Made by a program: the position numbers and the translations under genes. Of a stretch of 64,000 nt of DNA, positions 7,766-20,689 are shown in pieces. Source of the stretch: Fibrisoma limi BUZ 3 (lineage in GTDB: Bacteria; Bacteroidota; Bacteroidia; Cytophagales; Spirosomataceae). The notes beneath the pieces were generated by a model that did not search any database, was not told the origin of the DNA, and saw only the letters and a program-made list of their open reading frames with translations. The stretch's first letter is position 1. Each line of letters opens with the position of its first letter. Location: assembly GCF_000296815.2 (NCBI RefSeq), contig NZ_CAIT01000006.1, positions 874,777 to 938,776 of the forward strand, read 5' to 3'.

Positions 7766-9514
7766 TCAGGCGGCCGGCAACCGGAAGTAAAAGGCAGCCC
7801 CATCCGTTACGTCGGGTTTCAGGCCAATCTCTCCCTGCATGGCCGTAATGAATTCCTTAGAGATGGCCAGCCCCAGCCCCGTACCGCTTACCTGACCGTT
7901 GTTGCCGGGGGCGCGAAAGTAGCGGTCAAACACCCGGTCGCGGTGTTCGGGGCGAATACCCGCCCCATAATCGCGCACAAGAAATTCAACGAACCCCTGC
8001 ACGGGCCTGACCTGAATATCGATACGGTTATCTTCGGGACTGTGCCGTACGGCATTCGACAGAAAGTTGACCAGTACCCACGAGGCTTTGTCGGGGTCGG
8101 CCTGAACCGGCGGCAGATTGGGTGCCATGTTTACGTTGAACCGAATGTGTTTCTGCTCAACCTGGGTACGTAGCGCGTTCATGGCTACGTCGATGATAGC
8201 ACCGGGCGCTACGTTAGCGATCTGCAATTGAATCTGTCCCGACTCTACCTGAGCCATATTGAGCAGTTCTCCCGTAATGTTGAGCAGCCGATCGGAATCG
8301 TTGCGGACGTGGTCCAGCAGTTGTTTTTGTTCATCGTTCAACAGACCGATGCGCTGGTCTTCGAGCAGTTTCAGGCTCATTTTGATACCGGAAATGGGCG
8401 TTTTCAGCTCATGCGACACGGTAGCGATGAAGTTGGTCTTGGCCAGGTCGCGCTCCTGGTAGGGCGTAATGTTCTTCAGCACGATCACGTAGCCGGCCTG
8501 CTGCGCCTGCTCTTCGCCCGTACGGGTCACTTCCACTACGTGAATCTGCTTATTGAAGTAACTTTCCTTCCCTTTGCCGTCGGTGTCTACGTCATAAATC
8601 TTGAGCAGCCGACCTTCACGGCTCATGGGCTCATCGGTCATCAGTTCCTGAATCAGCGTCCGCATCAGGTCATTGACGGAAGCTACATCGGGGGCGTATT
8701 TACCAACCAGTTGCGCTTCGGTCAGCCCCAGCAGCCGACAGGCCACGGGATTGGCGAACAGAATCCGCCGTTTTTCGTCCAGCCCGATGATGCCGTCGGA
8801 CATGATCTGAATGAGGGTATCGATGCGTTTCTTTTCGAACAGCACCCGCGCCAGGCTGCTGTGCTCATACTCATCGAGTTTCTGAGCCATCGAATTGAAC
8901 GACCGGGCCAGTTCGCCAAACTCGTCGCTGGACTGAAAATGGAGTCGTTCTTCAAAATTCCGGCTGGCAACCTGTTTAATACCACGCGTTAGCTCCCGCA
9001 GCGGATTGGCGATATAACCCGGAAAATTGATAATGAACGAGAAAACCACCAGGAAACACAGCGTCCCGATAAACGCCAGCCAGACCAGCGCATCATTGGC
9101 GGTCTGCTCGGCGGTTCGGTTCTTCCGAACCATGGCCTGGCGGTTTACGTCGTCAAGCAGCAAAAGGGAATTACGCAGCCGATTGATGGTCAGCGAGTCG
9201 CGGGCACCGGCCTTTACCCGGTTAAAGTCCCGCCGAAGCGCATCCGTAAGGCTCTGCTCACCGACCTCCGTCACATTACGTTCCTGAAGACGAAGGTTCT
9301 GCTCAAAAACAGCTTTTGCATCAGGATCGACAGCCAGGTTCATGAGCGCCTTCTGCATGTCGCTGGTGTATTCCAGCGAAATGTAGTTATCCTTCAGAAT
9401 CGCCTGGGCGTCGTTGGAAAGCTGATTCAGGTAGTACGCTCCTAATCCCCCCAGCGCCAGAATGATGGCGAACATAAAGGTCAGTCCCAGGGATATTTTG
9501 GCTTTTAGAGTCAT
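7766..9514 (-). CDS. HAMP/PAS sensor histidine kinase, probable Kdp-system kinase
   Basis: A 582-aa membrane histidine kinase. TM1 is at residues 8-28, followed by a periplasmic helical region (30-140), TM2 at 144-165, HAMP at about 165-220, a PAS domain at 228-350, HisKA with phospho-acceptor His368 in TVSHELKTPISG, and HATPase_c with the N box NFLSNAVRHSPED, G1 box RDYGAGIRPEH and G2 box GTGLGLAIS. It lies directly downstream of the KdpD sensor module that lacks a kinase, in the kdp operon, so it very likely supplies the transmitter part for that module. The nearest response regulator is the sigma-54 type at 19132-20472. Potassium signalling is inferred from context. Confidence 0.92.
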   Translation of the reverse strand: MTLKAKISLGLTFMFAIILALGGLGAYYLNQLSNDAQAILKDNYISLEYTSDMQKALMNLAVDPDAKAVFEQNLRLQERNVTEVGEQSLTDALRRDFNRVKAGARDSLTINRLRNSLLLLDDVNRQAMVRKNRTAEQTANDALVWLAFIGTLCFLVVFSFIINFPGYIANPLRELTRGIKQVASRNFEERLHFQSSDEFGELARSFNSMAQKLDEYEHSSLARVLFEKKRIDTLIQIMSDGIIGLDEKRRILFANPVACRLLGLTEAQLVGKYAPDVASVNDLMRTLIQELMTDEPMSREGRLLKIYDVDTDGKGKESYFNKQIHVVEVTRTGEEQAQQAGYVIVLKNITPYQERDLAKTNFIATVSHELKTPISGIKMSLKLLEDQRIGLLNDEQKQLLDHVRNDSDRLLNITGELLNMAQVESGQIQLQIANVAPGAIIDVAMNALRTQVEQKHIRFNVNMAPNLPPVQADPDKASWVLVNFLSNAVRHSPEDNRIDIQVRPVQGFVEFLVRDYGAGIRPEHRDRVFDRYFRAPGNNGQVSGTGLGLAISKEFITAMQGEIGLKPDVTDGAAFYFRLPAA

Positions 9515-9622: not shown

Positions 9623-10756
9623 TTAAGACAATATAATCAGGTCCGTATCGGATTGCGACAATTTATTGAGCATCTCGTTGAACAGGTTTGTCCGTAAAAT
9701 AATCCGGATCAAATTTATATGTGGTTTGCCAATGCAGATGGTTGTTATTTTTCGTTCCTCGGCCGTTTCAACAATGCAGCGGGGAATGTTGGCTCCTTTC
9801 ACCTGGATCACCTCCGCTCCCAGTTCCGTGGCCAGCTTCAGGTTGTTGATCAGGTGCCGCTGCACATCCAGTTTGATTCGGTCGGGGCCTTCGGCGGGCG
9901 TCTGCACGTAGAGCACAAACCACCGCGACTGGTAAAACGACGCCAGACGAGCCGTTTTGCGAATGATCATCCGGGCGGTCTGGTGGTTGGTGCTGATGCA
10001 GGCCAGAAATCGCTCGGGGCGGCTCTGCACACCCGGCGACAGCGTCGTTTCGATTTTCCGCTCCACCTGCCCGGCCACTTCCTTCAGTGCCAGTTCGCGA
10101 AGCTGTAGAATCTTCTCCGGCTGAAAAAAATTACGCAGCGCCGTCTCGACCTTCGCTTTGTCGTAAATCTTGCCCTCCTTTAACCGGGTGATCAGCTCAT
10201 CGGCGGGCAGGTCAATGTTAACGACCTCGTCGGCCATGTGCAGCACCTTGTCCGGCACGCGTTCCGTTACGTCGACGCCCGTTATGGCATGCACTTCGTC
10301 GTAGAGGCTCTCGATGTGCTGAATGTTGACGGCGCTGATTACGTTGATGCCTGCGTCCAGAATCTCGATGACATCCTGCCAGCGTTTTTCGTTTTTCGAC
10401 CCGGGTATGTTGGTATGGGCCAGTTCGTCTACGATCACCAGTTCAGGGTGCACGTTCAGGATGACCTGTACGTCCATCTCTTCGAGTTCACGACCGCGAT
10501 AAAACAACCGGCGCCGGGGAATGATCGGCAGACCCTCCACCAGCGCCTGCGTTTCGGCCCGGTTGTGTGTTTCGATAAACCCAATCCGCACCTCAATACC
10601 GCTCCGCAGCAACGCGTGCGCTTCCTGCAGCATTCGATACGACTTCCCCACGCCCGCACTCATCCCGATATAAATTTTAAATTTCCCCCGGCGCGACTGT
10701 TGAATTAGCCGGAGGAATTGTTCGGCGGACTGGTCGCGGTTGTCTTCTGTCGTCAT
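9623..10756 (-). CDS. KdpD N-terminal sensor module without kinase domains
   Basis: A 377-aa protein equal to the N-terminal cytoplasmic half of KdpD. It has the KdpD domain with Walker A (IYIGMSAGVGKSYRM, residues 28-42), the ETHNRAET and VDELAHTNIPGS motifs, followed by a universal-stress-protein-like domain (RFLACISTNHQTARMIIRKT to the C-terminus). The four-TM DUF4118 region and the HisKA/HATPase part of E. coli KdpD are absent. ATG at 10756 (MTTEDNRD) is chosen; the frame extends 15 codons further, but only MTTEDN... resembles an N-terminus. With the adjacent kinase it forms a split KdpD, common in Bacteroidota. It probably senses K+ or c-di-AMP/ATP status and controls kdpFABC. Confidence 0.93.
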   Translation of the reverse strand: MTTEDNRDQSAEQFLRLIQQSRRGKFKIYIGMSAGVGKSYRMLQEAHALLRSGIEVRIGFIETHNRAETQALVEGLPIIPRRRLFYRGRELEEMDVQVILNVHPELVIVDELAHTNIPGSKNEKRWQDVIEILDAGINVISAVNIQHIESLYDEVHAITGVDVTERVPDKVLHMADEVVNIDLPADELITRLKEGKIYDKAKVETALRNFFQPEKILQLRELALKEVAGQVERKIETTLSPGVQSRPERFLACISTNHQTARMIIRKTARLASFYQSRWFVLYVQTPAEGPDRIKLDVQRHLINNLKLATELGAEVIQVKGANIPRCIVETAEERKITTICIGKPHINLIRIILRTNLFNEMLNKLSQSDTDLIILS

Positions 10757-10817
10757 TCGTCGATGTATTGCAATGCCGATAGCCCACGTAGCGTGAGCCA
10801 CCGGTATTAAAGTAAAG

Positions 10818-11981
10818 CTAGAAGCTTACGGCCAAACTCGTTGTCAACGCGGTGTTATACCGCCCGAATCCGTTGCTTGTCTGGAAGATGGCATCCTTGC
10901 TGTTGAATGTACGGGCTTCAATGCGAAACAGCGCCTGCTGCGAAATAACGTAGTCGACATTCGCCGAATAGCCCCAGGTCTGGAAGCCGTTGGGGCGGTC
11001 AGGCGTTCCGGTGTTGGTGGGAATAATCACCCCGTTTTTGTCATCGTAGTATTCAACGCGTCCGGCCAGCCGTACTTTGTCGCCGGGGCTATAGCGTAGA
11101 ATGGCCACGGGTGTATACCAAACGTAACTTCCGTCGCCCACCCGACGCCCTTCTATCCTCGGCTTGCGGTCCGCCCCAATGTCGAAGCCCAGGGTTACGC
11201 CTACTTTGCCCGGCTGAATGATGGCGTACAGATTATGGTACATCCGTCGCTGGCTCAGCGAATCGGGCCGGTCGGAGCCGAAGAACGTACTCCAGTTCAA
11301 GGTCACGGCAGACGACGGGCGGTATTGAATCTGGGTACTTAGCGATGGCCCCGAGTACCCATCGAGCCGTTTTACGCGCTGCCAGCCGTTGACGACCGCC
11401 AGCAAAAACGTCCACTTGCCGTTTGGTCGGTCCGGCGTTCCGGTATTGTACGTTAGCTTCGCCCCCGCCAGGTAATAGGGCGAGTTTTCGGCCACGATGC
11501 TGCGCGTCAGCGTCCAGCAGTCTTTGCCAATCGCACTTTCAAAGCCAATGTGCGACGAAAAGATGCCTGCATCCAACCACAAGTCACGGTTCCGGCTCAG
11601 CTTCACTCCGGCATTGGCCTCAAAGATGTTTTTGATCAGCTCCTGTTCGGCTGCATAGTTATACTGCGGATACGTACCGGCCTGAATAGCCAGATTTGCC
11701 CGCACCCGATCCCCTACGTAGGCCCCCTTCAGAAATGCCAGATTCACGTTCACTTCGCGGTTTCGCTTGAAGTTATACAGAAAGCCCGGCCGTTCCTGAA
11801 TGGTTTTGGGCGTCGTAAAATCATGGACATAGTATGCTTCTACGTAGCCCGATACAGTCAGGCCGCTGGCTGATGTGGCCGAAGTCTGCGCCGGGGCTGA
11901 CGTGGTTGTTGAATCCGTAACCTGGGCCATGGCTGCTACATAGAAGGTCGACAGAGCCACGGTCATTCCTATTGATTTCAT
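10818..11981 (-). CDS. outer-membrane beta-barrel porin (BBP2/OmpL-like) in the kdp operon
   Basis: A 387-aa exported protein with a signal peptide ending in AAMAQ and a mature part of alternating amphipathic strands finishing in ..TTSLAVSF, an aromatic C-terminus typical of barrels. The motif order TVSGYVEAYYVHDF, LAFLKGAYVGDRVRANLAIQ, WLDAGIFSSHIGFESAI and ENSPYYLAGAKLTY is that of the putative beta-barrel porin-2 family. Sitting between kdpC and kdpD, it probably admits K+ or another ion through the outer membrane when the Kdp pump is induced. That role is inference from the operon. Confidence 0.85.
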   Translation of the reverse strand: MKSIGMTVALSTFYVAAMAQVTDSTTTSAPAQTSATSASGLTVSGYVEAYYVHDFTTPKTIQERPGFLYNFKRNREVNVNLAFLKGAYVGDRVRANLAIQAGTYPQYNYAAEQELIKNIFEANAGVKLSRNRDLWLDAGIFSSHIGFESAIGKDCWTLTRSIVAENSPYYLAGAKLTYNTGTPDRPNGKWTFLLAVVNGWQRVKRLDGYSGPSLSTQIQYRPSSAVTLNWSTFFGSDRPDSLSQRRMYHNLYAIIQPGKVGVTLGFDIGADRKPRIEGRRVGDGSYVWYTPVAILRYSPGDKVRLAGRVEYYDDKNGVIIPTNTGTPDRPNGFQTWGYSANVDYVISQQALFRIEARTFNSKDAIFQTSNGFGRYNTALTTSLAVSF

Positions 11982-12055: not shown

Positions 12056-12619
12056 CTATTTCAGCGCATCCAGCGCTGTATTCAGTGCTAAGACATTAAC
12101 CGTCGCGGGACCAAACAGGCCCAGCAAAGGTCCTTGCGTATGTTCGTCGACGAGCTGATTCAACCGATCGGCGCTGATGCCACGTACTTTGGCAATGCGG
12201 GCAACCTGAATTTTAGCCCCGGCTGGTGATAGATCCGGGTCCAGGCCACTGCCCGAGGCCGTCACCAGTTCGGCCGGAATCTGCGCTTTTGTTACGCCCG
12301 GATTATGCACCAGAAACGTATCAATACGCGCCTGAACCGTTTTCAGATAATCGGGATTGCTGGGCCCTTTGTTCGATCCAGCCGAACCTGCGGCATTGTA
12401 ATCCACCGCCGACGGACGGCTGTTGAAATAGCGGTCTTCCGTAAACGCCTGGCCAACGTTTTTGTAGCCAACTACTTTACCGTTTACCGTAACGGTCTCG
12501 CCTTTACCCCCGCCGGGCGCCAACGTTGCAATACCAGCTACGACGAGTGGATAGATGAAAGAAAGCAATACCAGCATGACAATCGTGAGTCGAATGGCTG
12601 GTCCGATGTGTGTTTTCAT
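12056..12619 (-). CDS. kdpC: potassium-transporting ATPase subunit KdpC
   Basis: KdpC is the single-span accessory subunit that stabilises the KdpFABC complex. The sequence has one N-terminal TM (residues 10-32, TIVMLVLLSFIYPLVVAGIA), then FTEDRYFNSRPSAVDYNAAG (the KdpC signature YFxxRPS), GSNKGPSNPDYL, and a C-terminal AGAKIQVARIAKVRGIS with DEHTQGPLLGLFG. Length 187 aa is normal. It is third in the kdpABC order and separated from kdpB by a 137-bp spacer with an inverted repeat. Confidence 0.97.
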   Translation of the reverse strand: MKTHIGPAIRLTIVMLVLLSFIYPLVVAGIATLAPGGGKGETVTVNGKVVGYKNVGQAFTEDRYFNSRPSAVDYNAAGSAGSNKGPSNPDYLKTVQARIDTFLVHNPGVTKAQIPAELVTASGSGLDPDLSPAGAKIQVARIAKVRGISADRLNQLVDEHTQGPLLGLFGPATVNVLALNTALDALK

Positions 12620-12756: not shown

Positions 12757-14925
12757 TTAAAAGATTAATCCAATTACCAAATCAATAATTTTGATGCCGA
12801 TGAACGGAGCGACAATGCCGCCAACGCCGTAGATCAGCAGGTTCCGGCGCAGCAGCGCGCTGGCCCCAATTGGTTTGTATTCAACCCCGCGCAGGGCCAG
12901 CGGAATCAGCATCGGAATGATGATCGCGTTAAAGATCACCGCCGACAGGATGGCCGACTCGGGGCTGTTCAGCCGCATGATGTTCAGCGCCTGTAGCGCC
13001 GGAATCGAGCTGATGAACAAGGCCGGGACAATGGCGAAATACTTCGCTACGTCGTTGGCGATGGAGAAGGTTGTTAGCGTACCGCGCGTAATGAGCAACT
13101 GCTTACCGATCTCAACCACCTCAATCAGTTTGGTCGGGTCGTTGTCGAGGTCGACCATGTTCCCCGCTTCCTTAGCCGCCTGCGTACCGCTGTTCATCGC
13201 TACGCCCACATCGGCCTGCGCCAGCGCCGGGGCGTCGTTCGTACCGTCGCCCATCATGGCTACGAGCTTGCCGCCGGTTTGCTCATGACGGATGTAGTTC
13301 ATTTTGTCTTCCGGCTTGGCTTCGGCGATGAAGTCATCAACCCCCGCCTTTTCAGCAATAAACTTGGCGGTTAAGGGGTTATCACCCGTTACCATCACCG
13401 TTTTCACGCCCATCCGGCGCAGTCGCTGGAATCGTTCCTGAATGCCGGGTTTGATAATGTCCTGCAATTCCACTACGCCCTTGACAACCTCGTTTTCAGC
13501 AACCACCAGGGGCGTCCCCCCGTTGGCCGCAATCTCCTTCGCTTTCCTGTCGGTTTCGGCGGGGAACGTATTACCCGCCCGTTCCACCATTGCCCGGATG
13601 GAGTCAACGGCTCCTTTTCGGATGCGGATTACGTCGGTAGTCTGGTCACTGATAACGGCTTCGTCCTTAACACGGCCGTCGGTTCCCCGCGCTACGTTGC
13701 TTCGGGTCGGCATGTCAATGCCACTCGACCGCGTTTCGGCCGTGAATTTGATCAGCGTCGCGCCTTCGATGGACAGCGACCGTGTTACGTCGGCTCCCCA
13801 GTTGCCATTACGGGCTAGTTCGACAATCGACTTACCTTCTGGTGTTTCGTCGGCCAGCGAACTGAGCGTACTGGCCCGCACCATGTCAACCTGACTCACA
13901 CCGGGTGCCGGGTAGAAATTGGTTGCCTTTCGGTTACCAATCGTGATCGTACCGGTTTTATCGAGCAGCAACGTATCGACATCGCCCGCCGTTTCCACCG
14001 CCCGTCCGGATTTGGCGATGACGTTCGCCCGCAGGGCCCGATCCATACCCGCAATACCAATGGCCGATAACAGCCCACCGATGGTCGTCGGAATCAGACA
14101 GACGAACAGGGAAATCAGCGCGGCAATGGTGATCGGCGTATTGGCGTACTCGGCGAAGGGTTTCAGCGCCACGCAGACGATGACGAAGATCAGCGTAAAC
14201 CCTGCCAGCAGAATCGTCAGGGCAATTTCATTGGGAGTTTTCTGGCGGCTCGCGCCTTCAACCAGTGCGATCATCTTGTCCAGAAACGACTCCCCCGGCT
14301 GGGTCGTCACCAGCACTTTAATCCTGTCCGACAACACCTTCGTCCCACCCGTCACCGACGACCGGTCACCGCCCGCTTCTCGGATAACGGGCGCTGATTC
14401 ACCCGTAATGGCCGACTCGTCGATGGTAGCTAACCCTTCGATAATCTCGCCGTCGGAGGGAATGATGTCGCCGTTTTCGCAGACAAATACATCGCCTTTT
14501 TTGAGTTGCGACGACGGAATGATCTCGATTTCATCGAGCTTCATCTGTCCCACTGGCGGAGTGCCGCCCAGCCGAATCACCCTGGCCGGGGTTTCTTCCC
14601 GCGTTTTGCGGAGCGACTCAGCCTGAGCTTTCCCCCGCGCTTCGGCGATGGCCTCGGCGAAATTGGCAAAGAGGACCGTTGCGAACAGAATGCCCGTAAT
14701 GGCAATGTTGTACCCGAGTGATCCCTGCGACGTATCGCCCGACAGGGCGATGTAAATCGTAACCAGCAGCATGATGAGCGTTCCGACTTCAACGGTGAAC
14801 ATCACCGGATTCTTGATCAGAATTGCTGGATTCAGTTTTATAAATGATTCCCGAATCGCCGTTCCAACGAGGTCACGCTGGAACAAGCCGGGCCGCGTAC
14901 GGCCGGGGGATGATTGCTTTGCCAT
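12757..14925 (-). CDS. kdpB: potassium-transporting P-type ATPase subunit KdpB
   Basis: The ATP-hydrolysing subunit of the Kdp K+ pump, in the inner membrane. Visible motifs are the actuator TGES (174-177), phosphorylation site DKTGT with Asp322, P-domain TGDNPLTA (513-520) and [17 protein letters not shown] (558-574), the KdpB-specific [15 protein letters not shown] (272-286) in the membrane, and [19 protein letters not shown]. At 722 aa it is longer than the roughly 680 aa of E. coli KdpB. The extra length is an N-terminal tail of a few residues and about 25 residues inserted in the nucleotide-binding domain (about 405-433) between SGID and RIRKGAVD. All catalytic motifs are intact. Confidence 0.97.
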
Positions 14926-14944
14926 GTTAGGTTATATCATTAGG

Positions 14945-14968
14945 ACAGCCGATTGAGTGGCCGGCTGT
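14945..14968. repeat. short hairpin in the kdpA-kdpB spacer
   Basis: ACAGCCG (14945-14951) pairs with CGGCTGT (14962-14968) over a 10-nt loop within the 47-bp gap between kdpA and kdpB. It is a small intercistronic stem-loop without a useful U-tract. Confidence 0.5.
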
Positions 14969-14972
14969 TTTG

Positions 14973-16688
14973 TTATTTCAATGTAAAGTATTCCGCCAGT
15001 GGCCCCAGCGTCAGGGCCGGGAAGAACGACAGAGCCGTAATGATGAAGATGACGGCGAAAATCATCAGGCCAAACGTGGGCGTATCCACCGGCAGCGTTC
15101 CCGACGACTCCGGCACGTACTTTTTCCGGGCCAGCAAGCCGGCAATCGCCACCGGACCGATAATAGGAATGTACCGCCCCAGCATCAGCACAATACCGGT
15201 CGAGAAGTTCCAGAAGAAGTTGTTGTCGCCCAGTCCTTCGAAACCCGAACCGTTGTTGGCGTTAGCCGATGTAAATTCGTAGAGCATCTCCGAGAAACCG
15301 TGGAAAGCCGGGTTGTTCAGCCAGGCCGACGGCTTCACCGCCCAGGTGGCATCACCATAATTAATGAATAACCAGGCAGCCAGTGCTGTACCTCCTTTGA
15401 CAAGCAGCGTACTCAACAGCGCTACGATGGAGGCAATCTTGATCTCGCGTGCCTCGACTTTCCGGCCGAACAATTCCGGTGTCCGGCCTACCATCAAGCC
15501 AGCCACGAAGACGGAAATGATCAGGAAGTAGTAGAAGTTGAGTAAGCCTGCGCCGACGCCACCGTAGAAGGCGTTCACCATCATACCCAGTAGTTCCATT
15601 GCCCCCGAGAGCGCCATTGAACTATCGTGCATGGCGTTAACCGAGCCCGTCGAGATGATGGTCGTCACAATGCTCCAGTACGCCGAAGCGACCGGCCCGA
15701 ATCGAACCTCTTTGCCTTCCATCGCCCCCGTTGGTTGGGAAATACCCATTTGCGCAATAGCCGGATTCCCTCCCAGTTCGCTGATAAGTGTGGGCACCAG
15801 CAACACCAGCATCCCGACCGTCATAACCCCGTAGATGACCCAGGCAAACCGCCTGCGGTTGACGAAAAAGCCCAGCGCGAAAATCATGGCGATGGGAATC
15901 AGCACCTGGGTCACCATCTCAACCATGTTGGTCAGGTAATTCGGGTTCTCCAGCGGATGTGCCGAGTTAGCCCCAAAATACCCCCCACCGTTGGTGCCGA
16001 GGTGTTTGATGGCAATGAAGCCGGCCGCGGGCCCGCGCGAAACCCCGACGGTGTCGCCCTGCATGGTCGTGATGGTGTCCTTTCCGTCGAAGCTGGCCGG
16101 TATCCCGTTGAACGCCAAAACAAGGGCAACGACCAACGATCCCGGCAGCAACAACCGCGTAATGGATTTGGTAAACAGCACGTAGAAATTACCAACCGTT
16201 TCTGTGCTTTTGGGTATAAACGAGCGGAACAGCAATACGGCCGCTGCGATCCCGGTAGCTGCCGACACGAACTGAAGAAACATCAGCACCCCCAGTTGCG
16301 TCAGGTACGTTACGCCGGTCTCGCCGGAGTAGTGTTGCAGGTTACAGTTGACCAGAAAGCTAATTGCCGTATTAAACGCCAGATCGGGTGTCTGCGACGG
16401 GTTTCCATCCGGGTTCAGCGGCAGGCTTCCCTGCGTGACCAGCAGGACGAAGGCATACACCAGCCAGAGGGCGTTGATGGTCAGCAGGGCCACCAGGTTT
16501 CCTTTCCAGTTCATATCCCGGTTGGGATCAACCCCACCCAGGCGGTAAATCAGTCGCTCCAGCGGAGCCATAAAATCAAAGGCATTCGGTTCTCCTTTGA
16601 AAACTTTAGCAAGAAACTTGCCCAGCGGGATTGCCAGCAGGACCGTAAGGCCGTACATGACAATCACGCCCATCCATTCCGTGAACAT
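14973..16688 (-). CDS. kdpA: potassium-transporting ATPase subunit KdpA
   Basis: KdpA is the channel-like K+-binding subunit related to the TrkH/KtrB superfamily. The 571-aa sequence is polytopic and has the pore-loop phrases NCNLQHYSGE, KHLGTNGGGYFGANSAHPLE, SVNAMHDSSMALSGAMELLG and TSANANNGSGFEGL, which match the four selectivity loops, including the NGGGYFG of loop II. It starts at ATG 16688, 12 bp after kdpF. It is intact and of normal length. Confidence 0.97.
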   Translation of the reverse strand: MFTEWMGVIVMYGLTVLLAIPLGKFLAKVFKGEPNAFDFMAPLERLIYRLGGVDPNRDMNWKGNLVALLTINALWLVYAFVLLVTQGSLPLNPDGNPSQTPDLAFNTAISFLVNCNLQHYSGETGVTYLTQLGVLMFLQFVSAATGIAAAVLLFRSFIPKSTETVGNFYVLFTKSITRLLLPGSLVVALVLAFNGIPASFDGKDTITTMQGDTVGVSRGPAAGFIAIKHLGTNGGGYFGANSAHPLENPNYLTNMVEMVTQVLIPIAMIFALGFFVNRRRFAWVIYGVMTVGMLVLLVPTLISELGGNPAIAQMGISQPTGAMEGKEVRFGPVASAYWSIVTTIISTGSVNAMHDSSMALSGAMELLGMMVNAFYGGVGAGLLNFYYFLIISVFVAGLMVGRTPELFGRKVEAREIKIASIVALLSTLLVKGGTALAAWLFINYGDATWAVKPSAWLNNPAFHGFSEMLYEFTSANANNGSGFEGLGDNNFFWNFSTGIVLMLGRYIPIIGPVAIAGLLARKKYVPESSGTLPVDTPTFGLMIFAVIFIITALSFFPALTLGPLAEYFTLK

Positions 16689-16700
16689 GAGTTAGGTGAG

Positions 16701-16781
16701 TTAAAACCTTTCGGGTTTGATGAGTACGTACAGCATGTACGCGAATACGAGCAATGCAGCAATAAAAACTAAGGTGATCAT
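16701..16781 (-). CDS. kdpF: KdpF small membrane subunit
   Basis: A 26-aa hydrophobic peptide starting MITLVFIAALLVFAYMLY and ending VLIKPERF. It is a single TM followed by the short polar ..KPERF end typical of Bacteroidota KdpF and comparable to the ..INAEAF end of the E. coli protein. It lies 12 bp upstream of kdpA, the canonical kdpF position. KdpF stabilises the KdpABC complex in the membrane. Confidence 0.9.
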   Translation of the reverse strand: MITLVFIAALLVFAYMLYVLIKPERF

Positions 16782-16793
16782 GAGCGTAGTTGG

Positions 16794-16880
16794 TTAGATT
16801 TTCTCGAACCACTCAATGCAGCCGTAAAAAAACGCGAAGCAGATCAGCGCCGAGAGTAATAGCAACAGGAGCGTTCCCAT
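16794..16880 (-). CDS. 28-aa single-span membrane peptide, first gene of the kdp operon
   Basis: An open frame of 28 codons starts at ATG 16880: MGTLLLLLLSALICFAFFYG, then CIEWFEKI, then TAA. It is one hydrophobic helix with an acidic-aromatic C-terminus. It lies 12 bp upstream of kdpF and about 24 bp after the predicted sigma-54 transcription start, so it would be the first cistron of the kdp mRNA. It is not kdpF, which follows. It could be a second regulatory or structural subunit of the pump, or a leader peptide. No characterised homologue is known to me, and translation is unproven. Confidence 0.6.
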   Translation of the reverse strand: MGTLLLLLLSALICFAFFYGCIEWFEKI

Positions 16881-16914
16881 TTGACATTTTCTTAATTGGT
16901 ACGATCAGCCAGGT

Positions 16915-16930
16915 TGCCAATGGAATGCCA
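16915..16930 (-). promoter_or_regulatory. predicted sigma-54 (-24/-12) promoter of the kdp operon
   Basis: On the minus strand the sequence is TGGCATTCCATTGGCA, against the RpoN consensus TGGCAC-N5-TTGC. The invariant GG and GC dinucleotides are present with exactly 10 nt between them (GG at 16929-16928, GC at 16917-16916). The predicted start is near 16904, 24 bp before the first small ORF. Two palindromes lie 100-135 bp further upstream, the usual distance for enhancer sites of NtrC-type activators, and such an activator gene lies at 19132-20472. Confidence 0.7.
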
Positions 16931-17022
16931 AACAGACCTCCCCTTCCCCACTTTATAAATTTGCTACTGACAAACAGCCTGTTACAAAAAAGACCTCATC
17001 ACGAGCGCCAATTCAACCGAAT

Positions 17023-17065
17023 TCTTTTTCTCAAAATGAGAAGAGTCTTTTTCTCAAAATGAGAA
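17023..17065. promoter_or_regulatory. tandem palindromic enhancer-like sites between kdp and kup
   Basis: The 20-bp word at 17023-17042 is repeated exactly at 17046-17065. Each copy contains the perfect palindrome TTCTCA-AAA-TGAGAA (17028-17042 and 17051-17065). The centres are 23 bp apart, close to two helical turns, so two dimers would bind the same face. They are centred about 130 and 153 bp upstream of the predicted kdp start and 62-99 bp upstream of the kup start codon. I infer that they are the operators of the sigma-54-type regulator encoded beyond kup. Confidence 0.75.
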
Positions 17066-17126
17066 AGACCGCTTGTCAAACCGGCTGCGAAAGAAGCCAA
17101 AATGCTGTTTACCTTTAAGGCCACGT

Positions 17127-19115
17127 ATGTCTGCAACCGAATCATCTCATCACAACCTGGATAAGCTCACTGCGGGTGGCTTATTGGTAGCGGTAGGTAT
17201 CGTCTTTGGCGATATTGGTACGTCCCCCCTGTACACCTACCGGGCCATTATTGAAGACCATGTCGTTGACGAAACTCTGGCCCTTGGTGGAGCTTCTGCC
17301 ATTTTCTGGACACTAACATTTCAGACTACACTAAAATATGTGCTGCTCACCCTACGGGCCGACAATAAGGGTGAAGGTGGTATTTTTTCACTCTACACCC
17401 TGATCCGGCGGTATGCTAAATGGCTTTTGTTTCCGGCCATTGCGGGCGGCAGCTTTCTCATTGCCGACAGTATCATTACGCCCCCAATCTCGGTTTCCTC
17501 CGCCATTGAAGGTCTGCGGCCGCTGTATCCCGATCTGCCTACGGTTCCGATCGTACTGGCCATTCTGGTCGTCTTGTTTACTGTGCAGCAAATCGGAACC
17601 GACCGGCTGGGCACGGCCTTCGGACCGATCATGATGGTGTGGTTCACGATGATTGGCGTCGTTGGTATCGCGCAGGTGCTCAAGGATACTTCGGTTATCC
17701 GGGCGCTGAATCCGGTGTACGCGTATCGGATGATTTCGGAGCATGACCACGGATTCTGGCTGCTTGGAGGGGTCTTCCTCTGTTCGACCGGGGCCGAAGC
17801 GCTCTATTCGGATATGGGGCACGTCGGTCGACGGAACGTGCAGGTTTCCTGGATATACGTTAAGCTGTGCCTGATTCTGTGCTACTTAGGCCAGGCTGCC
17901 TGGCTGCTGGATCACCAGGGCCGACCGCTGGGGGAATCTAACTCATTTTTCGGGCTGATTCCCGACTGGTTCATGCTGCCGGCTATCGGCATTGCTACGC
18001 TGGCCACGATCATCGCCAGTCAGGCGCTCATCAGCGGTACGTTCACGCTCGTCTCGGAAGCGTTCCGGCTGACGCTGCTGCCTAAATTGCGGATTGTATT
18101 TCCGTCGGATGCGCGCGGGCAGGTGTACATTCCAGCGTTCAACTGGTTGCTCATGGCCGGCTGTATCGGGGTAGTCCTCTATTTCAAAGAGTCGAAGAAC
18201 ATGGAAGCGGCCTTTGGTCTGTCGGTGAATTTGACCATGCTGATGACCACCATATTGCTGGCCTATTACCTTTATACACGGCACGTAAACCTGTTCGTTG
18301 TGTTTGGCCTGCTCGCTCTCTACCTGACGATTGAGAGTGCGTTTCTGGCGGCCAACCTACGTAAGTTTGCTAATGGTGGCTGGGTAACACTGATGCTGGG
18401 GCTGGTTATCATCACCATTATGTACGTCTGGTATCGGGGCAGCCGGATTAAGCGCCGGTTGACCTCCTACGTCAGTCTTAAAGATCACCTGCCTATTCTG
18501 AAGGAACTCAGCAATGATCCGGATGTACCAAAGTACGCGACCAATTTAGTCTTTTTAACGTCTTCGGACAATCCGTTGCTGGTCGAAGATCACATCATCA
18601 ATTCCATTCTCGAGCGCCAGCCCAAGCGGGCAGACCTGTACTGGCTGATTCACGTCGATCTGGTTGATGAGCCGTACACCGCACAATATTCCGTTGATAT
18701 TCTCGAACCGGAAGAAGTAGTTCGTATTACGTTCCAGCTTGGTTTCCGGGTGCAGCCCCGGATCAATCTGCTCTTCAAGCGAGTGGTCGAAGAAATGGTA
18801 CGTTGCTGCGAAGTGACCATCCTCAGCCGATATCGTTCGTTGCAGCGGCACGATATTGTCGGTGATTTTCGGTTCATCATCATCAATCGCTTCCTCTCGT
18901 ACGAGAACGATCTGGATGCCATCGATACGTTTATCATGAACGCCTATTTCGCGCTCAAACGGCTCAGCATCTCCGACGAAAAAGCGTATGGGCTGGATTA
19001 CCAGAACGTAACGACCGAGCAGGTGCCGCTGGTGGTTCGCCCGGCCGAGGAACTCCCGTTGAAACGAGTCAGCCGACCAACCTCATCACCGAAAACCGAC
19101 AAGGCGGTTGGATGA
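17127..19115 (+). CDS. kup: KUP/HAK/KT-family potassium uptake permease
   Basis: A constitutive-type K+:H+ symporter of 662 aa. About twelve TM segments occupy residues 1-430. The N-terminal signature VGIVFGDIGTSPLYTYRAI, the GGIFSLYTLIRRYAKWL segment and CSTGAEALYSDMGHVGRRNV match the KUP family. The C-terminal cytoplasmic domain of about 200 residues follows. The frame can be read from a TTG at 17073, but MSATESSHHN at 17127 gives the normal N-terminus. It is divergent from kdp and convergent with the regulator gene, 16 bp apart. The palindromes at 17028-17065 could act on it too. Confidence 0.95.
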   Translation: MSATESSHHNLDKLTAGGLLVAVGIVFGDIGTSPLYTYRAIIEDHVVDETLALGGASAIFWTLTFQTTLKYVLLTLRADNKGEGGIFSLYTLIRRYAKWLLFPAIAGGSFLIADSIITPPISVSSAIEGLRPLYPDLPTVPIVLAILVVLFTVQQIGTDRLGTAFGPIMMVWFTMIGVVGIAQVLKDTSVIRALNPVYAYRMISEHDHGFWLLGGVFLCSTGAEALYSDMGHVGRRNVQVSWIYVKLCLILCYLGQAAWLLDHQGRPLGESNSFFGLIPDWFMLPAIGIATLATIIASQALISGTFTLVSEAFRLTLLPKLRIVFPSDARGQVYIPAFNWLLMAGCIGVVLYFKESKNMEAAFGLSVNLTMLMTTILLAYYLYTRHVNLFVVFGLLALYLTIESAFLAANLRKFANGGWVTLMLGLVIITIMYVWYRGSRIKRRLTSYVSLKDHLPILKELSNDPDVPKYATNLVFLTSSDNPLLVEDHIINSILERQPKRADLYWLIHVDLVDEPYTAQYSVDILEPEEVVRITFQLGFRVQPRINLLFKRVVEEMVRCCEVTILSRYRSLQRHDIVGDFRFIIINRFLSYENDLDAIDTFIMNAYFALKRLSISDEKAYGLDYQNVTTEQVPLVVRPAEELPLKRVSRPTSSPKTDKAVG

Positions 19116-19131: not shown

Positions 19132-20472
19132 TTACTTTTTGAGCCCGTATTCATCCAGCTTCCGGTAGAGCGTTGCCAGGGAAATGCCCAGCAGTCGGGC
19201 GGCTTCGGCCTTCTGATTGCTGGTCATGGCTAAAACCCGCCCGATGTGCTGGCGTTCCAGCGCCGACAGCGACAAATCATCGCTGGTGTTCGTTGCGTAG
19301 CCTTCCCTGATGTCGAACGGCAGGTAGTCGGGCAGCAGTTCTGGTCCATCGGCCAGGATAACGGTTCGCTCAATGACATTCTTCAGTTCACGGATATTGC
19401 CTTTCCAGGAATGTTGCTGCAACATCTGCACGAACTCAGGGGTCATTCGCACGTCGCGTTTGCCGATCTTGGCCGCATCCCGCCTGGCAAAAAATTCGGC
19501 AAGGGCCGGAATGTCGTCGGGACGGTCGCGGAGTGGAGGTAATTCGATCGAAAACACCGACAGCCGGTAATACAAATCCAGCCGGAAGTGTCCTGAACCG
19601 GCTTCCTGTTCCAGATTCCGGTTTGTGGCCGCCACCACGCGCACATCGGTTTTGGTCGGTTTAGTGTCGCCTACGCGCAGAAACTCGTGGGTTTCGAGCA
19701 CCCGCAGCAGTTTGGCCTGCAAATCGAGCGGCATCTCGCCGATCTCGTCGAGGAAAATGGTTCCTTTGTTCGCTTCGGCAAACAACCCTTTCTGGTCGCG
19801 GGTGGCCCCGGTAAACGCCCCCGCCCGGTGTCCGAACAGTTCACTTTCCAAAATCTCCTTGCTCAAGGCCCCGCAGTTGATGGCCACAAACGGCCCGCTA
19901 TGGCGCGGACTGGCGTAGTGAATGGCCTGCGCGAACACTTCCTTGCCGGTGCCCGTTTCGCCGGTCAGCAATACGGTCGTATCCGTTACGGCCACTTTCC
20001 GGGCGAGGTTGATGGCCTGCCGGATGGCCGCCGACTGTCCGATAATGCTATCGAAGCCATACCGCTTGCTCACCTGCTGTTCCAACTGGCGGATGCGAAA
20101 CTGCAACTCCGCCTTCTCGACAGCCCGGCTAACCAACGGAATGATCCGGTCGTTGTCGTCGCCTTTCGTGATGTAGTCGAATGCGCCGTTTTTGATGGCC
20201 GTTACGCCATCGGCGATGGTACCGTACGCCGTCAGGACGATGATCTCCGTGGCGGGGTATGCCTGTTTGATCTGGGCCGTTAACTCAATCCCATTTTTAT
20301 CGGGCAGTTTGACATCACTGATCACGAGTTGCACGTCTTCCCGCTCCAGCACCTTCAGCCCGCTGCGGGCGTCACTTGCTTCCAGGATGGTGTACCCTTC
20401 GAGGCTCAACAGCCTTGCCAGCAGTTGGCGAAGCCGGTCTTCGTCGTCGATCAGGAGAATAGTAGCGGCCAA
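19132..20472 (-). CDS. sigma-54-dependent NtrC-family response regulator
   Basis: A three-domain activator. The receiver domain (ATILLIDDEDRLRQLL; phospho-acceptor Asp in VISDVKLPD; LTAYGTI; the usual YITK lysine) is followed by an AAA+ domain with Walker A GETGTGKE, the sigma-54 contact loop GAFTGA, Walker B GTIFLDEIGE and the R-finger region LYYRLSVFSIELPPLRDR. A Fis-type helix-turn-helix lies at the C-terminus (KAEAARLLGISLATLYRKLD). I chose the TTG at 20472 because it begins exactly at the receiver domain. An ATG at 20535 and a GTG at 20574 are alternative starts. Its position beside kup and kdp, and the RpoN promoter with enhancer-like sites before kdp, suggest it replaces KdpE. The kinase at 7766-9514 is the probable partner. 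Confidence 0.93.
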   Translation of the reverse strand: MAATILLIDDEDRLRQLLARLLSLEGYTILEASDARSGLKVLEREDVQLVISDVKLPDKNGIELTAQIKQAYPATEIIVLTAYGTIADGVTAIKNGAFDYITKGDDNDRIIPLVSRAVEKAELQFRIRQLEQQVSKRYGFDSIIGQSAAIRQAINLARKVAVTDTTVLLTGETGTGKEVFAQAIHYASPRHSGPFVAINCGALSKEILESELFGHRAGAFTGATRDQKGLFAEANKGTIFLDEIGEMPLDLQAKLLRVLETHEFLRVGDTKPTKTDVRVVAATNRNLEQEAGSGHFRLDLYYRLSVFSIELPPLRDRPDDIPALAEFFARRDAAKIGKRDVRMTPEFVQMLQQHSWKGNIRELKNVIERTVILADGPELLPDYLPFDIREGYATNTSDDLSLSALERQHIGRVLAMTSNQKAEAARLLGISLATLYRKLDEYGLKK

Positions 20473-20689
20473 TGGTATAAACGATAATGAACTGCAAAAG
20501 TAAACGATACCCTGGCTTAACGCTGAGTCGGGCATCAGGTATTCCCTGTCAGAAGGACTATAGCCGCTATCCACTCATCCTAAAAACGACATTTCGTAAT
20601 CATAACCCGTTAAATTTGGTTTAGTATACACCGGGGTATTCTGCTGACTCACGTTGTCCGTTGGCACTATCCTCCCTAACAACGGCACC

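Follow-up and report, generated by a model that had tools for sequence, protein, structure and literature searches.

A proposed NtrC-type regulatory circuit with paired upstream palindromes and a sigma-54-like promoter at the kdp operon of Fibrisoma limi and related Bacteroidota

The kdp locus and its upstream region

The window analysed here, meaning the whole 64-kb stretch of Fibrisoma limi BUZ 3 DNA, carries a minus-strand kdp operon and, downstream of the pump genes, a porin, a stand-alone KdpD sensor domain and a membrane histidine kinase, with a divergent potassium transporter gene (kup) on the other side and the gene of an NtrC-type response regulator beyond it (Table 1). In Escherichia coli, kdpFABC is controlled by KdpD and the OmpR-type regulator KdpE, and Kdp is the textbook case of two-component control by this pair, acting with the housekeeping sigma factor. 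The listed kup reading frame starts at a TTG (17073), and the later in-frame ATG was taken as its start.

Table 1 Features of the kdp region, in coordinates of the window
Feature	Position	Strand	Remarks
Membrane histidine kinase (HAMP-PAS-HisKA-HATPase_c), proposed partner kinase	7766..9514	-	
Stand-alone KdpD sensor domain without kinase	9623..10801	-	PF02702 only
BBP2 outer-membrane beta-barrel porin in kdp operon	10818..11981	-	PF07642; same place in most family loci
kdpC	12056..12619	-	PF02669
kdpB	12757..14925	-	E1-E2 ATPase and hydrolase domains; between kdpA and kdpC
kdpA	14973..16688	-	PF03814
kdpF, 28 aa, MGTLLLLLLSALICFAFFYGCIEWFEKI	16794..16880	-	similar small peptides in relatives
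Predicted transcription start	16904	-	inferred from the box, 12 nt past the C of its -12 GC
-24/-12-like promoter box, GG-N10-GC	16915..16930	-	TGGCATTCCATTGGCA
Promoter-proximal palindrome, proposed enhancer site 2	17028..17042	-	TTCTCATTTTGAGAA
Promoter-distal palindrome, proposed enhancer site 1 of the NtrC-type regulator	17051..17065	-	TTCTCATTTTGAGAA
kup K+ transporter, divergent from kdp	17127..19115	+	PF02705; in-frame ATG taken as start
NtrC-type response regulator, GAFTGA, Fis-type HTH, helix triplet SLA	19132..20574	-	

The porin may be an outer-membrane entry path for K+ that is made alongside the pump, and in three loci (L094, L107, L108) a second, diverged kdpA copy, 47–50% identical to the KdpA of the window, lies between kdpC and the porin gene. 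In the one congener examined (L080) only a short kup remnant is found beside the kdp promoter (8870-9055), which suggests that kup has been lost or moved there.

An earlier note, made from the letters of the window, had predicted that kdp is controlled by sigma-54 and had described a minus-strand box, two palindromes and a nearby activator, and this description proved accurate. Read from 16930 to 16915, the box has exactly the GG-N10-GC spacing, and 34 bases separate it from the kdpF ATG (16880). The two palindromes are identical (both TTCTCAAAATGAGAA on the plus strand), their centres (17035 and 17058) are 23 bp apart and lie 131 and 154 bp upstream of the predicted start, and from the centre of the promoter-proximal palindrome it is 106 bp to the GG of the -24 element, with the box downstream. 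The regulator, whose gene lies ~2.07 kb from the palindromes, has an intact GAFTGA loop and three domains over the cut-off (Response_reg PF00072, Sigma54_activat PF00158 and HTH_8 PF02954); its true start is uncertain, since alignments with most homologues begin only at about residue 23–38.

Across the whole genome (7,626,970 bases in 14 contigs), TTCTCANNNTGAGAA occurs only as the kdp pair. The shorter TCTCANNNTGAGA, which has one base less per arm, occurs in eight places, namely the kdp pair, three single sites with G or C in the spacer, and a triple with 21 bp spacing on contig C8 (~94140-94194; L297 1480-1534). The triple mimics enhancer spacing yet is coding sequence, being made of repeats (ISQNE-like) inside a reading frame of 354 codons, and it was rejected as a second target of the regulator.

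Conservation of the palindromes and their regulator

Our family sample comprised 150 genomes, the genome of the window included, of which 88 had kdpA. We retrieved 86 kdp regions in addition to the window and dropped one (L116, from genome G059) in which kdpA is cut by the contig end, leaving 86 loci; a 71-residue kdpA match in G137 and second kdpA matches in G054, G068, G142, G139 and G148 fall outside this set. A phylum-wide sample of 296 genomes contained 86 with a kdpA match, and 40 of these were retrieved as wider loci. Upstream of kdpA we searched for a 15-base palindrome with the core YCA-WWW-TGR, using as controls 50 rounds of dinucleotide shuffles and windows of the same length elsewhere in the loci. 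Of the 86 family loci, 78 had the palindrome, compared with a mean of 5.9 and a maximum of 10 in the shuffles and with 117 of 2304 control windows, and the eight loci that lack it by this criterion include four with one-base variants of the core. Tandem pairs, defined as palindromes 17–25 bp apart, occurred in 42 of the 86, as the earlier note had expected of related genomes, and in none of the shuffles or the 2304 control windows; the spacing was 19 bp in 5 loci, 20 in 7, 21 in 18, 22 in 11 and 23 in one, the window itself. These family numbers are partly built in, because the palindrome patterns, like the helix classes used below, were defined after the loci had been inspected.

The wider loci serve as a partly independent check. 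Here the palindrome was found in 18 of 40 loci (shuffles: mean 2.7, maximum 6; windows: 73 of 1106) and tandem pairs in 5 of 40, with none in shuffles or windows. Twenty-seven of the wider loci had a regulator orthologue (≥49% identity) in the retrieved stretch, and a stricter pattern applied over 800 bp matched in 22 of them; it matched in none of the 13 wider loci where the retrieved stretch contained no such orthologue. The same regulator recurs in named genomes: among the best 80 loci at least 42 matched at ≥50% identity, nearly all of them Bacteroidota (L256 is a Kapaibacterium MAG), and the genera among the matches listed include Spirosoma, Chitinophaga, Mucilaginibacter, Dyadobacter, Pedobacter, Flavobacterium, Chryseobacterium, Elizabethkingia, Paraprevotella, Phocaeicola and others. 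Of these 42 loci, 31 had kdpA in the retrieved stretch, compared with none of the 38 named loci at ≤45% identity among the same 80. With a loose pattern, 21 of the 31 loci with kdpA had a palindrome match within 700 bp, some of them weak, and 10 had none, among them several Flavobacterium loci including that of F. psychrophilum (L232), where the regulator is near kdp.

The regulator follows kdp closely through the family. At E 1e-125 or better, 85 of the 150 genomes had both the regulator and kdpA, 60 had neither, three had kdpA alone (G059, G109, G137) and two the regulator alone (G029, G128). An orthologue (≥48% identity) was encoded upstream of kdpA in the retrieved stretch in 64 of 86 family loci, for example ~2.5 kb from kdpA in G053, whilst among the remaining 22 loci 21 genomes had an orthologue elsewhere (56–80% identical) and one, G109, had none. 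A separate orthologue search of 25 genomes gave a match in 22 and none in G109, G059 and G080, the last of which has no kdpA. The gene order that recurs in the family is regulator, kdpA-B-C, porin, KdpD domain, kinase. The GAFTGA motif was read in 130 of 151 regulator rows, some of which are redundant, with GSFTGA in 11, GAFSGA in one and nine unmatched by the pattern.

The closest link between the regulator and the palindromes is in the recognition helix. Over 103 loci (one genome, represented by both L093 and L215, was counted twice), the helix triplet and the two variable letters of the palindrome half-site go together: GIA occurs with TATCA (65 of 72 half-sites), GLT with TTCCA, TTTCA or TACCA, ALT with TTTCA (12 of 14, L074 being the exception), and SLA and GLA with TCTCA (11 of 12). 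After collapsing by genus to 60 pairs, the association was equalled in 0 of 10,000 permutations, with the caveat that the helix classes were grouped by hand after the table had been viewed. A tree of 101 regulators, from which the DNA-binding part and L215 were left out, implies nine changes in the helix and 24 in the half-site, and seven of the nine helix changes fell on the same branch as a half-site change; when nine changes were placed at random among 200 branches, 0 of 10,000 trials did as well. One of the seven is the branch leading to the window and its congener (helix GLT to SLA, half-site letters AC to CT), and another, in Spirosoma, a genus of the same family (g5; L105, L109, L111), is a separate move to LS with TCTCA/TCCCA. 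We regard this joint change of helix and half-site as the strongest evidence that the palindromes would be bound by this regulator rather than by another protein.

The promoter element and the sigma factor that would read it

The box of the window scored 18.2 of a possible 19.9 under a scheme built from the sigma-54 consensus. Across 87 upstream regions of 450 bases, no GG-N10-GC site on the opposite strand exceeded 16.7, and 16 regions reached 17.2 on the kdp strand; eleven of these sixteen sites are the conserved element described below (ten loci of genus g31 and the window) and the other five are at different positions, including three where kdpF begins. Over the whole window a loose -24/-12 consensus was not in excess (68 found, 96 expected), so that the box by itself is weak evidence, and this line was dropped; a scan of the flanks of the genome's other activators for a lineage consensus also gave nothing clear.

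We turn from the single box to its position relative to the palindromes, using 98 loci with a strict palindrome (L060 omitted) and a pattern of GG-N7/8-TTGG or GG-N8-TxGC starting 60–150 bp after the palindrome centre. A TGG-N-TTGGCA-like element was present in 78 of 98 loci, against a mean of 2.6 in shuffled segments, and 20 loci had no element by this pattern; relatives thus keep a promoter-like element as well as the palindromes, both of which the earlier note had expected close relatives to share. The distances cluster at 85–87, 96, 105–108 and 126–129 bp, with single or few cases at 65, 73, 79, 84, 94, 102, 110 and 124. Taking one value per genus and distance, and counting each phylum locus singly, the fit to a 10.5-bp period was R 0.705 (n = 47), compared with 0.653 at 10 bp and 0.655 at 11 bp, a fit that is not specific for 10.5 bp and that arises in part because one or the other palindrome was chosen from pairs lying ~21 bp, or two turns, apart. 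Measured from the promoter-proximal palindrome, loci with a strict pair also fall at ~86 or ~107 bp, the exceptions being L032 (96) and L179 (110); additional elements stand at 65 bp in L113 and L114, at 94 bp in the window and at 124 bp in L077.

The spacing within the element varies more than the box of the window would suggest. Among the 78 elements, 21 have GG-N10-GC, 49 have GG-N11-GC (equivalent to GG-N10-GG) and eight a GG-N9-GG form, and GG-N10-GC as a fixed rule for relatives, which fails in most genera, was replaced by TGG-N-TTGG(C). In the congener L080 the -24 half (TTTGGCAT) is identical to that of the window and lies at the same 106-bp distance, but the -12 half differs, giving GG-N10-GT. 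Two loci of other Bacteroidota families have a canonical-looking box (TGGCATTGCTTTTGCA in L206 and TGGCACGCTTTTAGCA in L208) that follows the palindrome, at 79 and 73 bp respectively, which is off the main phase.

Taken together, these comparisons make it very probable, in our judgement, that the kdp operon is switched on by the regulator encoded at 19132-20574, acting through the palindromes and the sigma-54-like promoter in place of KdpD/KdpE. Sequence comparisons support three steps of such a circuit: the recognition helix would read the paired palindromes, the regulator appears dedicated to kdp, and the palindromes tend to lie on one face of the DNA relative to the -24/-12-like promoter. 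The remaining steps would run as follows. At low K+ the histidine kinase, together with the KdpD sensor domain, would phosphorylate the regulator. Two regulator dimers would then occupy the palindromes, 131 and 154 bp upstream of the start, and assemble an AAA+ ring, which would use its GAFTGA loop, across a short loop of DNA, to make RpoN polymerase open the promoter at 16915-16930. The NtrC-type circuit would then stand in for KdpD/KdpE acting with the housekeeping sigma factor.

Sigma-54 itself is the less secure part of this proposal, because GG-N10-GC is found in only 21 of the 78 elements of relatives and because L080 has GT at -12. The prediction of the earlier note is supported, with the correction that its exact box spacing is a minority form among relatives; sigma-54 use at the kdp promoter is likely, and we are less sure of it than of the regulator and its sites. 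The main competing explanation, which we consider improbable, is that the regulator binds the palindromes and controls kdp whilst the promoter is read by another sigma factor, TGG-N-TTGGCA being no strict sigma-54 box. The variation of about one base in half-to-half spacing among genera, the -12 half of the congener and the off-phase position of the two most canonical boxes (L206, L208) would all fit such a reading. Against it, the regulators keep the GAFTGA motif, with GSFTGA in most of the others, the element is phased as enhancer action would predict, and canonical-looking boxes do occur in L206 and L208. A single rpoN match is present in the genome of the window, and rpoN is found in 148 of 150 family genomes, the two that lack it (G131 and G143) having no kdpA. 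A Bacteroidota-type -7 box also makes a poor candidate on the kdp strand of the window, where we found only three one-mismatch TAnnTTTG sites, two of them parts of the palindromes and one of these two with a TTG 15 bp before it.

Other explanations, known circuits and an apparent natural replacement

The kup ATG follows the palindromes at distances of 69 and 92 bp, and they could instead serve mainly to control the divergent kup and not kdp. We think this very unlikely, as in 65 of the 78 palindrome-bearing family loci the retrieved stretch upstream of kdpA contains no kup homologue and as the distance to the element on the kdp side is conserved; the regulator might nevertheless affect kup alongside kdp.

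Slightly more remote again is the possibility that an OmpR-type KdpE from another part of the genome controls kdp, or that an RNA switch does so, as happens in bacteria without kdpDE. The genome does contain 15 OmpR-type DNA-binding domains outside the window, and a c-di-AMP riboswitch is reported to control kdp in Bacillus thuringiensis (PMC6488665). The earlier note had stated that no OmpR-type KdpE is present, and this was borne out: the 64-kb window has no OmpR-type DNA-binding domain, and with the KdpE of a relative as query the 14 genome matches listed at E 1e-15 or better include none above 36% identity, compared with 54–62% among four KdpE-like proteins of relatives. No full-length KdpD, with sensor, membrane part and kinase, was found in the genome, its sole KdpD-domain match being the 392-aa protein of the operon without a kinase domain. 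A comparison of 14000-18000 with Rfam, taken up to E 1, gave no match, and a riboswitch was rejected. Finally, coincidence or a functionless local repeat as the source of the palindromes and box, at which the lack of excess of the loose consensus in the window and the coding triple on C8 might hint, is close to untenable given their conservation, pairing, distance and change in step with the helix.

The circuit proposed here, with the NtrC-type regulator acting on kdp, can be set beside several known systems. It shares with the KdpD/KdpE system of the E. coli type the transporter and a KdpD sensor domain, and differs in having an NtrC-type regulator, a sigma-54-like promoter and no full-length KdpD or KdpE-like protein that we could find. 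It has the receiver, AAA+ domain with GAFTGA, Fis-type HTH and paired upstream palindromes of the NtrC family of enhancer-binding regulators, but its target is a potassium transporter and its enhancer lies near the promoter at preferred distances. The closest published case that we found is DVU3334 of Desulfovibrio vulgaris Hildenborough, a sigma-54-type response regulator with GAFTGA that controls kdpFABC, in an operon (DVU3334-3339) where KdpD is divided between two proteins, a K+ sensor/Usp protein and a kinase (PMC3333781, PMC4641369). The alternative to KdpE control that the earlier note called coherent has in this regulator a precedent in print (PMC3333781). By these published descriptions the two are alike in a sigma-54-type regulator linked to kdp and in the split KdpD; they differ in that DVU3334 is within the kdp operon, two other regulators also targeting that operon, whereas in most of the Bacteroidota loci examined the regulator is encoded ahead of kdp or at another place and the operon includes a porin gene. 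Orthologues of DVU3334 are reported only from D. vulgaris Miyazaki and S. fumaroxidans in PMC3333781, whereas the Bacteroidota system is found in many members of its phylum. Promoters of the -24/-12 type have been mapped in the Bacteroidota in Flavobacterium psychrophilum, one of them tested by promoter mutagenesis, and neither kdp nor potassium appears in the main text of that study (PMC9723704); the main text of a 2025 survey of sigma-54 regulons likewise has no kdp or potassium (PMC12316311). We found no report of a sigma-54 kdp circuit in Bacteroidota in the open-licence literature, subscription papers being outside the scope of the search.

The one family genome in which kdpA is intact and the regulator orthologue was not found, G109, has another system in its place. 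At this locus (L060) no palindrome was found either, and directly upstream of kdpA lie a DUF4118 histidine kinase and an OmpR-type regulator, the latter 54–62% identical to the regulators that follow KdpD-type reading frames of 886–901 aa in three other Bacteroidota (L197, L200, L205). The older kinase reading frame of L060 is 410 aa long and has no HATPase_c match. Taking the locus together (L060 7385-9195 and 16082-17314), a DUF4118 kinase and a KdpE-like regulator appear to have naturally replaced the NtrC-type circuit in G109. Set beside the system of the window, it implies that two unlike circuits serve kdp in this phylum.

On balance, and with less assurance than for the locus itself, we favour the broader view that Bacteroidota have a widespread, dedicated sigma-54 kdp circuit with phased sites, in which helices and half-sites (TATCA, TTYCA/TACCA, TTTCA, TCTCA) have repeatedly diversified together, and whose place KdpD/KdpE can take entirely, as seems to have happened in one genome. 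Because each regulator seemingly reads essentially one operon, the ~100 loci would form a natural experiment in the joint evolution of a Fis-type helix and its palindrome. If this view is right, one and the same transporter has come under two unlike transcription machineries, and these loci show where one has replaced the other.
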